Origin: Pseudomonadota bacterium
GTDB lineage: Bacteria; Desulfobacterota; WTBG01; JAPLJA01
NCBI GenBank assembly: GCA_026388815.1
Contig: JAPLJA010000136.1
Coordinates: forward strand, 1-37,722
Direction of reading: 5' to 3'
DNA length: 37,722 nt
Shown piece after piece: positions 29,149-36,446 of the stretch (positions are counted from its first letter, which is position 1; every line of letters starts with the position of its first letter). The translations under genes and the position numbers were made by a program. Under the pieces are notes generated by a model. It was not told where the DNA came from. It worked only from the letters and a program-made list of their open reading frames with translations, and did not search any database.

Positions 29149-29234
29149 GCCGAAGTGGTGGAATTTGGTAGACACACCATCTTGAGGGGGTGGCGGCTAA
29201 CACCGTGCGGGTTCGAGTCCCGCCTTCGGCACCA
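29149..29234 (+). tRNA. tRNA-Leu(GAG), CCA encoded
   Basis: Acceptor GCCGAAG/CTTCGGC, anticodon arm CCATC-TTGAGGG-GGTGG (GAG), T arm GCGGGTTCGAGTCCCGC. Confidence 0.95.
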
Positions 29235-29236
29235 TT
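29218..29236 (+). repeat. 19-bp direct repeat within the tRNA-Leu 3' end (att-like)
   Basis: TCCCGCCTTCGGCACCATT, identical to 31759-31777. Confidence 0.85.
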
Positions 29237-29411
29237 AAAAATTTAAGTCTGTAGTTCAAGTGGATTACGGGCTTTTTTGTTTCGAATAGGATCGCATCTC
29301 AAAGATAAAGAATTGACCCCCTACTTTCCCCCAAAAGGGTCACCAGTTCGGGTGAATCCTTTGCCGCTGCAAATCTTACACTTGACGATCAATTTGAAAC
29401 CTTTTTAATAT

Positions 29412-29502
29412 GTTGAACGCTGGGCATGAGCCGACCACGCCACTAATGCTGGAATGAAAAACACAAGAGGCTGTTCGCGGTCGGCTGGATTTTCTGCTTA
29501 GG
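29412..29502 (-). other. Degenerate attC-like site downstream of the 307-aa gene
   Basis: Minus strand GCCTAAG...CAGCCGACC...GGTCGGCTCATGCCCAGCGTTCAAC: strong 8-bp internal stem and attC-like ends with mismatches in the core boxes. Confidence 0.45.
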
Positions 29503-29592
29503 CAAATTATCTCTCCTTTTTCCAAACGTCCTTTGTCAATGGCTGACCCCTCTGCTCGCCTCGTGGGAAACAACGCCGATCGTTCTCCCTAT

Positions 29593-30516
29593 CTATGGGG
29601 TTCCCTTGAGGACCCACTTTCCAGGCTCGTATTCCCAAACTTGCTCGCTTACCTTGGCCTGCATTCCATCAGATATCCTCATGGGTGGTGGATCTCCATT
29701 GCCCAGACTGACGCTGCCATTGCGGAAGCTGATAGCAGGGAAGTCACCACGACTGTCTATCCACAGGCCCAGAAAGTCGGCCCACTTTGAACCGAATGTA
29801 ACAACCCAGTAACGTGATCCCGCTGCCAGACCAAGGCTGAGCTCGTGATCCTGTAGGTTTTCAGTCCCACCCTTGAGTGCCTCAAACGGCAGGCGATGTT
29901 TGTCGAAAATCGGCTTGACGATCTGGACAAGCTCCGGGTGGTCAATGTTGGCTGCGAAGACGGTAAGTAAGAGGTACTCATTGAGAACATCGGTCATGCG
30001 CGATTCCTTCGCGGAAAAACTCGCGCCTTGCGCCGCTGAGTGTGGGCTACTGGCTGAACTCCCTCCGAGGGCTACTCTTTTTCCGTCCTTGAGCGTGACG
30101 CTTCCCTTGCCTCCCACATAAACATATCCCTTGCCGTATGTGCATCGAAATGTCAGAGGGTCCGTCTCGTCTCCTTCGAAAACGTAGCCAGTAAAACCTG
30201 AGTCCCGAAACTGGGACATTCTGTCTAGGGCAGTGCCGTTTACCGTCCCTTTGAAGCGGTGTATAGCACCATTATGGACTACCCGCTCGAGGAGAATGGT
30301 CTCCCCAGGGAACTGCTTGTTGGGGATAGTCCCGATGGAACCCTCAGTCCGAATCTTGCCCCCTTCGCCGGTGATCACGATGTCCGTCTTCGCCATCACC
30401 TGCTCAATCTTAATGTCTTTGAGAGTAAATTTTTCTTGTGCAGAGGCCGAATACTGAGAGACCATATTAATGAGAAACAATACTATTACCATTCCCAAAA
30501 TAGTTTTTGATTTCAT
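29593..30516 (-). CDS. Predicted exported protein, cassette cargo 2
   Basis: Signal peptide MKSKTILGMVIVLFLINMVSQYSASAQ; AAGGAGG RBS 7 nt before the ATG; lies between attC-like sites. Confidence 0.65.
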   Translation of the reverse strand: MKSKTILGMVIVLFLINMVSQYSASAQEKFTLKDIKIEQVMAKTDIVITGEGGKIRTEGSIGTIPNKQFPGETILLERVVHNGAIHRFKGTVNGTALDRMSQFRDSGFTGYVFEGDETDPLTFRCTYGKGYVYVGGKGSVTLKDGKRVALGGSSASSPHSAAQGASFSAKESRMTDVLNEYLLLTVFAANIDHPELVQIVKPIFDKHRLPFEALKGGTENLQDHELSLGLAAGSRYWVVTFGSKWADFLGLWIDSRGDFPAISFRNGSVSLGNGDPPPMRISDGMQAKVSEQVWEYEPGKWVLKGTP

Positions 30517-30547
30517 GCCGCACCCTCCTTTTTTAATTCATTTATAA

Positions 30548-30613
30548 GTCTAACGCACAAGCTAAGGGGCACAGCAGTCTTTTGCCGCGTTCCTCTTGAG
30601 CGCCTTGTTGGGC
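30548..30613 (-). other. Integron attC-like recombination site (66 bp)
   Basis: Minus strand GCCCAAC-AAGGCGCTCAAG-AGGAACGCGGCAAAAGACTGCTGTGCCC-CTTAGCTTGTGC-GTTAGAC; RYYYAAC and GTTRRRY boxes, pairable L boxes with an extra unpaired base. Confidence 0.8.
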
Positions 30614-30658
30614 ATTCATGTCTCGTTCCTTTTAATGGGCACTGTTCCTCGTACGACT

Positions 30659-31351
30659 TCAGTTGTTTCCCAGCAGTGCGGCCAGACGCCCAAACAGGTA
30701 TACTCGCTCCCGCCCATCCGCGGTTCTGTCGACGGCAAAGTAGTCGCCGGCCTTATGGCCAAAGGCGATCTTCGTTCCGATAATATTGCGGGCAATAAAG
30801 AATGGCTGGCTACAATAGAAGCTGACAGTCCTTCCTTTGGCTGCGGATATCTTCCCGCCAGGGGGCAAGACGAACATCACCTCCGCCCCTCTCCCAGCTG
30901 TGCCCGTGGTCGTTGTATTTATTTCCATTGAGAAAGAATACGGTAGGACGCCTTTCATCTCGATTGGGCCCTCAAGTTCCAGGGTGCTCAGATCGCTCCT
31001 CAGAACATCGCGATCAGGCAGATCGCGAAGTCGATCCCGAACCTGCACGAGGTGGGCGGTCTCAGGATAGTAGAGAACGAAACGAAGGTACGCTACTGCA
31101 GTGTTGGCCTGCACCGCCTTCGTGAACTCCGTGCTTTCCTGCCTACGGATCCAGTCGTCCGCCTGGTCGCGAAGCGGGCTCTTTGGGTGCGCGGTCCGGA
31201 ATACATTATACTCTTCCAAGCTAGCTGAGGACTGTGCCTTGGCCCAGGCCCGGGACTCTTGGTCGTCTTTAGCTTCTTGAGCAAAGCCAAGAGCATAAAC
31301 AAGTGACAATGACAGAATTAATACATTTAGCACTAAACCGTACCTTTTCAT
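30659..31351 (-). CDS. Predicted exported protein, cassette cargo 1
   Basis: Start reassigned to MKRYGLVLNVLILSLSLVYALGFAQ with AAAGGAGA RBS; starts 28 nt after a GTTGGGC core. Confidence 0.6.
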   Translation of the reverse strand: MKRYGLVLNVLILSLSLVYALGFAQEAKDDQESRAWAKAQSSASLEEYNVFRTAHPKSPLRDQADDWIRRQESTEFTKAVQANTAVAYLRFVLYYPETAHLVQVRDRLRDLPDRDVLRSDLSTLELEGPIEMKGVLPYSFSMEINTTTTGTAGRGAEVMFVLPPGGKISAAKGRTVSFYCSQPFFIARNIIGTKIAFGHKAGDYFAVDRTADGRERVYLFGRLAALLGNN

Positions 31352-31378
31352 AACGGCGCATCTCCTTTCTATGATTAG

Positions 31379-31385
31379 GCCCAAC
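31379..31385 (-). other. Lone GTTGGGC core (attI-like or relic attC R' box) at the upstream boundary of the first cassette
   Basis: GTTGGGC on the minus strand directly before the gene, with no complementary RYYYAAC arm upstream. Confidence 0.5.
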
Positions 31386-31758
31386 ATTAAATTTTTAAGC
31401 TGATTATACAATTGGCAACAATATAAGAGAATAGGATAATGTGTCAATAATTTTTAAGAGAAAATTTCAGAAGTAAAACCACGGCATTGTATAATGTTCC
31501 AAATTTTATTATATAAAATAGGTATAACTATGGAACTTGTTATGAGTCAGTCCTTCGGAAAGTATGGGCTTCAAGGGGTTCTATAAGATCCCAATCTATA
31601 CCCTTCTATGTCGTGTGGATTTCTGCAAAATACCCATCGGGTTAATTTGATTTCTGGTTGCGTATAGGTTGCATTTTGCTGTCACGTCATGTCACATTTT
31701 GCATTACTTTGCAGAGTTAACTATCTGAAATACTTGATATTTCATTACTTATTTCTAA

Positions 31759-31777
31759 TCCCGCCTTCGGCACCATT
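31759..31777 (+). repeat. Duplicate of the tRNA-Leu 3' terminus (att-like)
   Basis: Exact 19-bp match to 29218-29236. Confidence 0.85.
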
Positions 31778-31932: not shown

Positions 31933-33728
31933 ATGAACATCATTCACCAGGAGGCATTAGCATGGGTTCAGGAGATGGCCAACCTGTGCCAGCCGGATGA
32001 GATATGCTGGATCGACGGCAGCGAAGAAGAAAAAAAACGTCTTGAGAAAGATGCTCTTGCCACTGGCGAGCTTACCAAGCTGAACCAGACGCAATGGCCT
32101 GGATGCGTCTACCACCGGACAAATCCCAACGATGTTGCCCGCACTGAAGAGCTAACCTTTATCTGTACTGCTTTGAAGGAAGATGCCGGGCCGAACAATA
32201 ACTGGATGTCCCCGTTAACTGCCTACCGTAAAGCAACTGAAATTTTCAAGGGCTCCATGAAAGGCCGGACCCTGTATGTAATTCCGTTCTCCATGGGACC
32301 AGTCGGTTCTCCTTTCTCTAAAATCGGCATAGAAATTACTGACAGCATCTATGTGGTGCTCAACATGCGTATCATGACCATCGTAGGCGAAGAAGTGATT
32401 AATCAACTCGGCACCGCCGGCATATTTACCAAGTGCCTGCACAGCAAGGCTGATCTTAATCCGAAGCGCCGCCTGGTCCTCCATTTCCCTGAAGATAACA
32501 CGATCTGGAGCGTCGGCTCCGGTTATGGCGGCAACGTACTTCTCGGCAAAAAGTGCCTCGCCCTGCGCCTCGCGAGCCACATGGCGCACGAAGAGGGATG
32601 GCTAGCAGAACACATGCTCATCATGGGCATTGAAGAACCAAACGGTCGCATCCAATATCTTACCGGCGCCTTCCCAAGTGCGTGCGGCAAAACCAATCTG
32701 GCAATGCTGGTGCCTCCTGACGGTCTGAGACAAAAGGGCTATCGTATCTGTACGGTGGGCGATGATATTGCCTGGATGAGAATTGACACTGATGGCGGTC
32801 TGTGGGCCATCAATCCTGAATCAGGATTTTTCGGAGTTGTACCCGGCACAATTTAAAAACCAATCCTAATGCCATGGCCACTATTCGCAGGAATACCATC
32901 TTTACCAATGTGGTGCTTGGCGAAAACGGTGACGTCTGGTGGGAGGGATCTGATGATGAACCTCCACAGCTTGCTCGTGACTGGAGGGGGCGGCCCTGGA
33001 AGCCAGGCTTAAAGGACGACAAAAACTCCCCTGTACTCGGCGCTCATCCCAACAGCAGATTTACTGCACCTATCTCTCAGTGTCCCACTTCATCCTTCCG
33101 CCGCCAGCATCACCACGGCGTACCTGTCTCAGCAATCATTTTCGGAGGCCGCCGAGCACGTTTGGCTCCGCTCGTTTACGAATCCTTTAACTGGCAGCAT
33201 GGTGTATTCATGGGTGCTGCCATGGCTTCTGAGCGTACCGCCGCTCAATATGGCACTATCGGCGAGGTTCGCCAGGACCCCATGGCAATGCTGCCCTTCT
33301 GTTGATACAACATGGCCGATTACTTCGAACACTGGTTGCGCACGGGTTTGCGCATGAAACGGAAGATACAGCCGCGAATATTCAATGTCAACTGGTTCCG
33401 CACTGATGAAAACGGTAATTTTCTCTGGCCTGGCTACGGTGAAAATCTGCGCGTACTAGAGTGGATACTGGCCCGTTGCAGAGGCGAGGTTGATGCAGTT
33501 CAAACTGCCATCGGATACATCCCCCGTCCCGAAGATCTCAACTTGACCGGCCTTGATCTCCCTCCAGGCAACCTGGAGAAACTACTGAAGGTCAATCATG
33601 AAGACTGGCTGGAGGAAGCCAACCGGATCGAGAATTTTTTCAAACAGTTTGAAGACCGGTTACCCACTGAGATATGGGCGCAACTGGAAGGCCTCCGACG
33701 CAGGCTGGATGTCATGGACGAAATGTAG
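31933..33728 (+). pseudogene. pckG: GTP-dependent phosphoenolpyruvate carboxykinase, interrupted by a frameshift (about 32850) and an in-frame TGA (33303-33305)
   Basis: Three consecutive ORFs together encode [80 protein letters not shown]. Confidence 0.9.
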
Positions 33729-33821: not shown

Positions 33822-34187
33822 TTAACCTGGCATATGACTATCGCAGAGGGCAAGTACCATCTTATCTCTCTGAAAGGTTTTAATAAAACCGCTGTCCTTC
33901 ATTTTTTTAACTTCTTCAACCGTATAAGGAAAAACTTCAACGGGAAGCCCGACTCCCGAAAAATGGTCGAGAAATTCAGGAATCCGGTCAATGAACCTTC
34001 GTGAATCGTCCCGTAACAAAATATAAATATCTGCATCGCTTCCAGGTGCATAATTCCCACGTACCAGTGAGCCAAAAAGGCTTACTACTAAGACATCTGT
34101 CCTGGAAACCAGCAGTTGTTTGGCACGTATCATCAAACGTGGCAGAATTTCATTCCGGTTAAGAAATCTTACTCTTACACCACTCAT
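33822..34187 (-). CDS. Nucleotidyltransferase (MNT) domain protein
   Basis: VVSLFGSLVRGNYAPGSDADIYIL (GSx10DxD). Confidence 0.85.
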   Translation of the reverse strand: MSGVRVRFLNRNEILPRLMIRAKQLLVSRTDVLVVSLFGSLVRGNYAPGSDADIYILLRDDSRRFIDRIPEFLDHFSGVGLPVEVFPYTVEEVKKMKDSGFIKTFQRDKMVLALCDSHMPG

Positions 34188-34354
34188 AAATCCTCTGAGA
34201 AGCCTCTATGGCCTGTCCAGCCTCCTTTTTTGTAAAGTAATCATGCGGTATTCCATGCGGAAGACCATTCATAATAACCTGCTTCAAGGTCTAACTTTGC
34301 CTTTTCGATATCCTTTTCCGCCTGCCGTAACCAGTCTAAGCTTCTTTCAGGCAT
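34159..34354 (-). pseudogene. HEPN domain protein remnant (middle deleted, out of frame)
   Basis: MPERSLDWLRQAEKDIEKAKLDLEAGYYEW joined out of frame to NGLPHGIPHDYFTKKEAGQAIEASQRIYEWCKSKIS, which resemble HEPN N- and C-termini. Confidence 0.7.
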
Positions 34355-34603
34355 GCAATAGAGCCCCCCTCGAAGTCATTTGTCTGAAAGCTGACCTAAA
34401 AAATGCTATTGCACTCCTTAAAAATTGTCAATGACCAAATGTCAGGGGGTGACAGATGGAATCCAGTGACCAGAATGGAGAAGGCATCTGATAAATCCAA
34501 CCGCTTTGCACCATTATCGCTTTGCGCTTAGCGCCTTGCGTCTATCGCTCTTTTAGTCTATTCCGCTTCTAAAGAAGCTATTCTAATTTCTATATTACTC
34601 TCT

Positions 34604-35035
34604 TTACCCTTTTTCTATCTCATTCTTGATAAAATTTAGAAAAGGTGGATACAATTGAGGAGCTATTCGTAAGAACCTCTTTATATCTCCCCATTTCATA
34701 TCTAAATAGCGATGGGCTAAGGTATTCCTTATCTTGGCAAGTTCTGAGAAAGCCTCTGCTTCTTCCTCTTTATTATAAATATGGGAGCCTATCCAGAAGA
34801 GAACTTCTCTGGAAGTTTCAGGGATCTCCCCTCCCTCGATAGTAAGAAGCATCTTGGAGATATCTAACGTTGCATTAATAAGACTTTCAACCCATCTTTC
34901 TATTTCCAATCTCTTACTTCTCTGTGATTGGTAAACCTTCCAGTCGATTTCCTTTTCATATCCAGAAAGGAATTGCAGTTCCTTTTCAAGATAATCTACA
35001 TAAGGGACTATTTTCGATTTATCTCCCTGATGCAA
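34604..35035 (-). CDS. hepT: HepT-like HEPN (DUF86) toxin
   Basis: RNTLAHRYLD matches the RX4-6HXY RNase motif; adjacent to an MntA-like gene. Confidence 0.82.
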   Translation of the reverse strand: MHQGDKSKIVPYVDYLEKELQFLSGYEKEIDWKVYQSQRSKRLEIERWVESLINATLDISKMLLTIEGGEIPETSREVLFWIGSHIYNKEEEAEAFSELAKIRNTLAHRYLDMKWGDIKRFLRIAPQLYPPFLNFIKNEIEKG

Positions 35036-35462
35036 CTCTCTTCTCCTTATAGGAGTATGTAAGCCAATCTCTCACATATTCAGCTTCGTCACTGACGATA
35101 CAAAAAAAATCCATAAAAATTCCTCTGTCTCTGATGATGATAGGTTTTCCTTTTCTGATGATCTCATCGGCAAGAACCGACCTTGCTCTATTGAGAACTA
35201 CAAGGTCAATCTCTTTCTTTAAGAGCCTTTCAAGATCAAGGGCAATCCTGTTCTCTCCTTTATATGGTTTGCTAAAATTTTCCCACTCCACATCTTTTTC
35301 AGGCCGGAAATATATGGCTACGTCTATGTCACCTTCTCTCCGAACTTTACCTCTTGCTGCTGAGCCAAAAAGGAAGGCAAAAACGATATCCTCCCTTTCA
35401 TCAAAATAATCTTTTAGAAGCTCTATTATCCTCTTATTATCAGCGTTCACATTTTTCATCAA
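35019..35462 (-). CDS. mntA: MntA-like nucleotidyltransferase antitoxin
   Basis: FAFLFGSAARGKVRREGDIDVAIYF (GSx10DxD). Confidence 0.82.
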   Translation of the reverse strand: MMKNVNADNKRIIELLKDYFDEREDIVFAFLFGSAARGKVRREGDIDVAIYFRPEKDVEWENFSKPYKGENRIALDLERLLKKEIDLVVLNRARSVLADEIIRKGKPIIIRDRGIFMDFFCIVSDEAEYVRDWLTYSYKEKRVASGR

Positions 35463-35809
35463 TTTACTATTTCATCCTATCAGCAAACTGGCTACGCCTT
35501 CTTTATCCTCTCCGGGAAAAGCTCCCAAAGACCTCTCATGATGTGATTCTGGATATTTTTCACAAGCATTGATGGAGTTGATTGTAGCATTACTCACCCT
35601 AAAATGGAAGATTTAAAAGGCCCCCAGCGTATTTGAGGATGAAGGAATGAATAAAAGCGATTTCTTACATATCAATAGAGCAAGCCTGACCCCATACTCC
35701 TGCCTACTCTTTGCTTAAGTGGTGCACTTTAAAGTGGAATTCACCTTTAAATTGACTTGATTAATCGTAACTAGTAATATGAAGTAATATGATGATTAGG
35801 AGGTGTTAC

Positions 35810-36034
35810 ATGTCTAAGGTTATTGAAGCTGTCTTTGAAAATGGGATATTAAGACCTTTAACCGAACCCCATCTTAAGAACCACCAGCGAGTCAGGATAG
35901 AGATTCTCTCGGGAGATGATAAATGCTCGGTTGAATCTCAAAAAAAGACTCTATTGGAATTCGCGGGGGTCGGAAAAGGTCGTTTTACGGATGTCGCCAG
36001 AAACCATGACCGGTATCTCTATTCAAAGGATTGA
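35810..36034 (+). CDS. AF2212-like (DUF104) antitoxin
   Basis: MSKVIEAVFENGILRPLTEPHLKNHQRVRIEI. Confidence 0.85.
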   Translation: MSKVIEAVFENGILRPLTEPHLKNHQRVRIEILSGDDKCSVESQKKTLLEFAGVGKGRFTDVARNHDRYLYSKD

Positions 36035-36038
36035 CTCT

Positions 36039-36446
36039 ATGCCCCGGGATTGGATCTTCGTAGATACGAGTGCATGGTATGCAATTATTGACAAGAACGA
36101 CCGTGATTACAAGGCTGCAGTAAAGAAGGTCCGTATTTTGGATCGTCCCCTTCTAACAAGCAATTATATCCTCGATGAAATATTGACATTGCTTAAAACA
36201 AGATTGGGACCTTCAATAGCTATTCCATTCGGCCAAAAGTTGTGGGATCAAGAAGCTTCAGCTTTAGTTCGAATAACCGAAGAAGATGAGGAGAAAGCTT
36301 GGGGGATGTTTCGCCAATACGAAGATAAAGGTTTTAGTTTTACGGATTCCCTCACGTCCTTTGCTTTAATGGAGCGTCTTGACATCAATACGGTTTTTGC
36401 CTTTGATGACCATTTTGTTCAATACGGCAAATTCGTGATGCTGTGA
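36039..36446 (+). CDS. PIN domain (VapC-type) toxin
   Basis: MPRDWIFVDTSAWYAIIDKNDRDYKAA...DSLTSFALMERLDINTVFAFDDHFVQYG; start reassigned to the ATG 5 nt after the antitoxin stop. Confidence 0.88.
   Translation: MPRDWIFVDTSAWYAIIDKNDRDYKAAVKKVRILDRPLLTSNYILDEILTLLKTRLGPSIAIPFGQKLWDQEASALVRITEEDEEKAWGMFRQYEDKGFSFTDSLTSFALMERLDINTVFAFDDHFVQYGKFVML

Follow-up and report, generated by a model that had tools for sequence, protein, structure and literature searches.

A tRNA-anchored 2541-bp segment as a probable remnant of an integrative element whose relatives carry a recurrent arm motif

Tycheposons are cargo elements located at the 3′ ends of tRNA genes, and in E. coli the repeat units behind tyrT (rtT) carry the 19-bp tRNA 3′ end again downstream, as short tandem units. 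By definition, CIMEs are ICEs or IMEs that have decayed (PMC5704250), and Tycheposons, which are marine elements, have been proposed to be phage satellites (PMC11389934). In the stretch of DNA analysed here (37,722 nucleotides of contig JAPLJA010000136.1; the window) we found a 2541-bp segment, both borders of which carry the duplicated 3′ end of a tRNA-Leu(GAG) gene. Like a CIME, it is anchored at a tRNA and flanked by attL and attR, and it contains cargo only, the recombinase being absent; unlike a CIME, it shows no sign of a conjugative ancestor, its left arm appears decayed, and the related intact elements include prophage-like ones. With Tycheposons, likened by description alone, it has the cargo at a tRNA 3′ end in common, although these live in other organisms. 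The rtT units, unlike the island, have neither arm sites nor cargo, and they fit a 127-bp unit of a related genome (G011) better than they fit the window. The island resembles four prophages or islands (L190, L191, L203 and L208) of a group that we call the arm family: these carry the same arm motif at the same spacing, and L191 also lies at the same tRNA with a 17-nt duplication. Whereas those elements are 8-14 kb long and have an integrase beside the tRNA, the window island has none. The scar itself is an ordinary genome scar; its parent family is identified here.

The window belongs to a draft assembly of 3.49 Mb in 316 contigs, with 5.26% contamination. An exact 19-bp duplication of the tRNA-Leu(GAG) 3′ end had been reported in the initial annotation, and both copies were indeed found where it had placed them, with TCCCGCCTTCGGCACCATT exact at 29218-29236 and at 31759-31777 (Table 1). 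The identity comprises the final 17 nt of the tRNA followed by TT, and the ungapped likeness of the two copies reaches 25 nt at 92% (29212-29236 and 31753-31777). There was no third copy in the window with up to three mismatches allowed, and two matches occurred in none of 100 shuffled sequences, a chance of about 0. In the whole assembly the core 15-mer CCGCCTTCGGCACCA is exact only at the two repeat sites; a one-mismatch match on contig C182 lay inside coding sequence and was dismissed by eye as chance. The sequence directly following 31777 is TCCATGTTTTCTCTC.

Table 1. Coordinates of the features at the tRNA-Leu(GAG) locus (positions in the window)
Feature	Coordinates	Strand	Basis or remark
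tRNA-Leu(GAG), integration target, intact	29149..29234	+	ARAGORN, Rfam
attL core, left attachment-site copy (tRNA final 17 nt + TT)	29218..29236	+	exact repeat
Intrinsic terminator right after tRNA, 13 pairs, T-run	29245..29274	+	terminator scan
Candidate degenerate left arm site GTTTCGAATAGGATCGC, 3 edits from GNTGCGTATAGGNTGC	29279..29295	+	10/14 bases ungapped; weak by itself
isl1, 307 aa, N-terminal hydrophobic helix, no known family; cargo	29593..30516	-	ORF and family searches
isl2, 230 aa, signal-peptide-like start, no known family; cargo	30659..31351	-	ORF and family searches
Putative right arm-type site GTTGCGTATAGGTTGC, intact	31657..31672	+	lone exact match in 3.49-Mb assembly
attR core, right attachment-site copy; similarity from 31753	31759..31777	+	exact repeat
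pckG (GTP-dependent PEPCK), outside island; frameshift near 32855, in-frame TGA at 33303	31933..33728	+	

We noted that GTTGCGTATAGGTTGC sits 86 nt ahead of the second tRNA copy. 'Arm-type site' is a label given from position and by analogy, the sequence being a putative integrase binding site; no description of the motif in this context was found in the papers searched. The motif GNTGCGTATAGGNTGC, expected at 0.026 per genome and at 4e-7 in the 110 bp preceding the second copy, had 32 exact sites in 29 of 395 genomes of the phylum, as compared with 3 sites for the reversed control. A tRNA T-arm lay within 150 bp at 20 of the 32 sites, versus 4.9% of control positions. In total, about 25 of the 32 adjoin a tRNA gene or a tRNA 3′ fragment: the 20 recognized by the T-arm pattern and 5 short-copy right ends that the pattern missed and that were read by eye (the window, L165, L187, the right end of L190, and L198). 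The sites were of two types. In right ends the motif is followed by a tRNA 3′ fragment; in left ends the tRNA 3′ end is followed by a hairpin, the motif and then, often, the C-terminus of an antisense integrase. In about ten loci the motif adjoins integrases of one family (36-54% identity), which have the Pfam Phage_integrase domain with SAM-like N-terminal domains.

Measured from its first base to the end of the tRNA copy, the right arm stands at 119 nt in the window and at 108-148 nt in ten other right ends (108-119 nt in the Leu sites and L198, 133-148 nt in the others). The window spacing thus fits the arm family, in which GNTGCGTATAGGNTGC begins roughly 100-150 nt ahead of where the right tRNA copy ends. 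Past the 16-mer, the right arm of the window is most like those of L194 and L198 (0/500 shuffles); L194 is an element end adjoining the BREX genes BrxL, PglZ, BrxC and BrxP. At L241 (G233:C102, 824-11037), these four BREX genes lie upstream of an arm-family right end with a tRNA-Met-like fragment. In G002, GGTGCGTATAGGGTGC lies about 77 nt ahead of a loose copy of the tRNA end; the flank that the window and G002 have in common past the right copy was not significant (0.11 by shuffling). In viral contigs, used as a negative control, 28 of 30 motif sites were not beside a tRNA. The motif is thus not specific alone and, therefore, counts only together with the tRNA copy. Searching the viral contigs with the motif revealed no helper for the window site.

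The initial annotation had proposed a search for a full-length element with an integrase at the same tRNA, and L191 (in G373) proved to be one, with the same 17-nt duplication. This 8312-bp element lies at tRNA-Leu(GAG) and reads, in order, tRNA, hairpin, repeated GGTTGCG sites, an antisense 391-aa integrase, an ERCC4-type nuclease, other genes, right arm and tRNA copy; its integrase gene lies 32 bp past the tRNA, and its right arm starts 109 nt ahead of where the tRNA copy ends. A close relative, L190 (8741 bp, in G302), lies at tRNA-Leu(CAA) and has exact arms on both ends. Three other members lie at Arg tRNAs (L203, 14.1 kb; L208, 9.8 kb) and at a Met tRNA (L204, 9.2 kb). By inspection, L208 encodes portal- and terminase-like proteins; in L204 the integrase is absent directly after the tRNA. 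No conjugation genes were noticed in the intact elements that we looked at. Up to the tRNA end, the exact duplication measures 17 nt in L190, L191 and the window, and 45 nt in L203, L204 and L208; it was observed to start from the anticodon loop in the Arg and Met tRNAs and from the T-loop edge in the Leu tRNAs. The assembly of the window contains seven Phage_integrase matches, none of them near the arm family (29% identity at best, over part of the protein). It thus lacks a close relative of the arm-family integrase, and, therefore, no helper is seen there.

The content of the island itself is limited to isl1 and isl2, which are orphans and probably secreted proteins. Neither matched anything in Pfam, PHROGs, NCBIfam or PADLOC, and comparison with solved structures gave nothing significant. 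Searches for isl1 in phages and for isl2 in plasmids gave no match, and no full-length relative of either was found among 297 genomes of the phylum; elsewhere isl2 gave weak, partial matches only. Structure models built from the single sequences were of too low quality for use (mean pLDDT 35 and 49). We detected no genes for integration or for transfer (conjugation) in the segment, and tblastn with 12 arm-family integrases found no integrase relic. The earlier statement that the island encloses no recombinase is, therefore, borne out by the family searches with the two ORFs and by tblastn, and because both an integrase and a relic of one are absent, we class the segment as a remnant and not as an intact member of the family. 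Its base composition resembles that of the surroundings, up to an AT-rich right end.

At the left, the terminator behind the tRNA is probably the left end of the element, as intact members share this arrangement of tRNA end, hairpin and arm. Beyond it, GTTTCGAATAGGATCGC begins 45 nt past the tRNA, the left arm of intact elements lying about 49-61 nt past it; its level of match (10/14) is also reached by 30 (about 0.6%) among 5384 control segments taken from the window, and its reading as a decayed left arm is suggestive only. Of the putative attP arm-type sites, the right one is exact, and the left candidate is a 3-edit match near the expected place.

Looking for an empty site, we compared the locus in 16 further class genomes and in a set of 34 named ones from farther away; none of them is related closely enough to show it. 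Most of the relatives retrieved share the gene order pgk-tpi-secG-tRNA-Leu(GAG). Three of the other class genomes have a second copy of the tRNA end: G011 at 127 bp, G013 at 2655 bp, enclosing an AbiEi/AbiEii pair, and G005 at 4696 bp, enclosing a TOTE primase-helicase and a DUF4062 protein. None of the ORFs listed for these segments is an integrase, and in each a hairpin with a T-run was seen by eye after both copies. The right ends of the G005 and G013 segments differ from that of the window. In the 34 more distant genomes, which have this tRNA, flanks of up to 9.5 kb contained no second copy. That a second copy stands at this tRNA in three class genomes, and in none of the 34 distant ones, supports integration. 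In addition, behind a loose copy of the tRNA end in G015 there follows the C-terminal portion of a tyrosine integrase that has decayed. As separate observations, about 180 bp past both tRNA copies of G013 (L070, 4316 and 6955 onward) are alike, from the terminator onward, as though a tandem of two same-family elements stood there; and in G005 (L066, oriented, from about 8491 on) the sequence right behind the terminator of the second copy resembles, by eye, the 5′ region of a group II intron RNA.

Taken together, the 17-nt tRNA duplication, the right arm at the spacing of the family, and the existence of intact integrase-bearing members, one of them at the same tRNA, make it highly probable that the segment is the remnant of an integrative element inserted by a tyrosine integrase into the 3′ end of tRNA-Leu(GAG). 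The initial annotation had likewise taken the duplication for a tyrosine-recombinase scar around a non-autonomous or decayed island, a reading strengthened by the arm motif, by L191 and by the second copies in the three class genomes. The integrase would have bound the arm sites, and attP and attB, identical in sequence, would have crossed over close to the T-loop edge of the tRNA; the tRNA would thereby have been restored by DNA derived from the element, together with a new terminator. Afterwards the gene for the integrase, normally antisense right behind the left arm, would have been lost, and the left arm would have decayed. The segment fits a CIME-like remnant in which the att sites are kept and the integration genes lost; we infer that such genes were once present. 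A related integrase arriving in trans might still excise or extend the remnant. Several points speak against the remnant reading: none of the genomes compared offers an empty site, there is no integrase relic, the left arm is just a 3-edit match, no terminator was seen past the right copy, where the original tRNA terminator is expected, the base composition is similar to that of the surroundings, and the cargo looks like ordinary secreted proteins, not phage genes.

Another explanation is that the island, a small passenger, lacked an integrase from the outset and owed its movement to arm-family integrases acting in trans, as MITEs owe theirs to transposases. The right arm and both att copies are kept, the two ORFs are intact and an integrase relic is absent, all of which would suit a passenger, as would the other integrase-less segments (127 bp to 4.7 kb) between the same tRNA ends in the class, two of them with intact defence genes. 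However, the left arm is degenerate, and, therefore, this copy has probably lost its mobility; a search of 297 genomes of the phylum found the island no second time; and the right ends of G005 and G013 differ, so one common passenger family is not evident. Nor does the island resemble a MITE in having several copies and a helper in the cell, since it is single and its assembly has no close relative of a helper integrase. We consider this origin unlikely. A broader proposal, which we hold to be unlikely, is that arm-family integrases mobilise in trans small cargo with only att cores and arm sites, and that the secG-adjacent tRNA-Leu(GAG) serves as a loading dock both for cargo and for defence genes (AbiE and TOTE, with BREX in a related element), the window island being one passenger.

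Had the tRNA end been duplicated locally, with no recombinase involved, the case would recall the repeats behind tyrT in E. coli, and a model for such an event exists in the 127-bp unit of G011, which lies between two tRNA ends that each have their own terminator-like hairpin. The window copies, by contrast, are 2.5 kb apart, have nothing in common outside the tRNA end, and an arm site precedes the second, which makes such a duplication very unlikely. (At L065 in G011, the two tRNA-Leu 3′ ends 127 bp apart, with a hairpin behind each, are themselves reminiscent of the tyrT repeats.) The fragmentation and contamination of the assembly, together with the two lesions, perhaps sequence errors, in neighbouring pckG, could point to an assembly error; yet a repeat of 19-25 nt is short for a misjoin and the arm site stands at family spacing from the copy, and we regard an error as highly improbable. 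That the right arm motif is a chance match, leaving the repeat alone to carry the case, finds an argument in the viral contigs, where most matches lie away from tRNAs; the frequent tRNA neighbourhood of the phylum sites, and the fact that the window site is unique in its genome and so placed ahead of the copy, render this scarcely credible.

For the remnant and its relatives, GNTGCGTATAGGNTGC at a near-fixed distance from a tRNA 3′ copy offers a handle for the ends of the element family across the phylum, one that also catches recombinase-less remnants missed by gene-based searches. It has to be paired with the tRNA copy, since the motif alone also arises by chance. The apparent pattern of 45-nt duplications in Arg and Met tRNAs and 17-nt duplications in Leu tRNAs makes target choice testable.

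Downstream of the island, pckG is the sole GTP-PEPCK match in the assembly, and its lesions may reflect a pseudogene or sequence error. The initial annotation had the island separating the glycolytic operon from pckG; this describes the present order correctly, but pckG is broken and adjacency of the tRNA to pckG was seen in no relative examined. Past pckG, at 33822-36446 of the window, we observed two nucleotidyltransferase genes, a HepT-like gene and a PIN-domain gene, an arrangement that is toxin-antitoxin-like.
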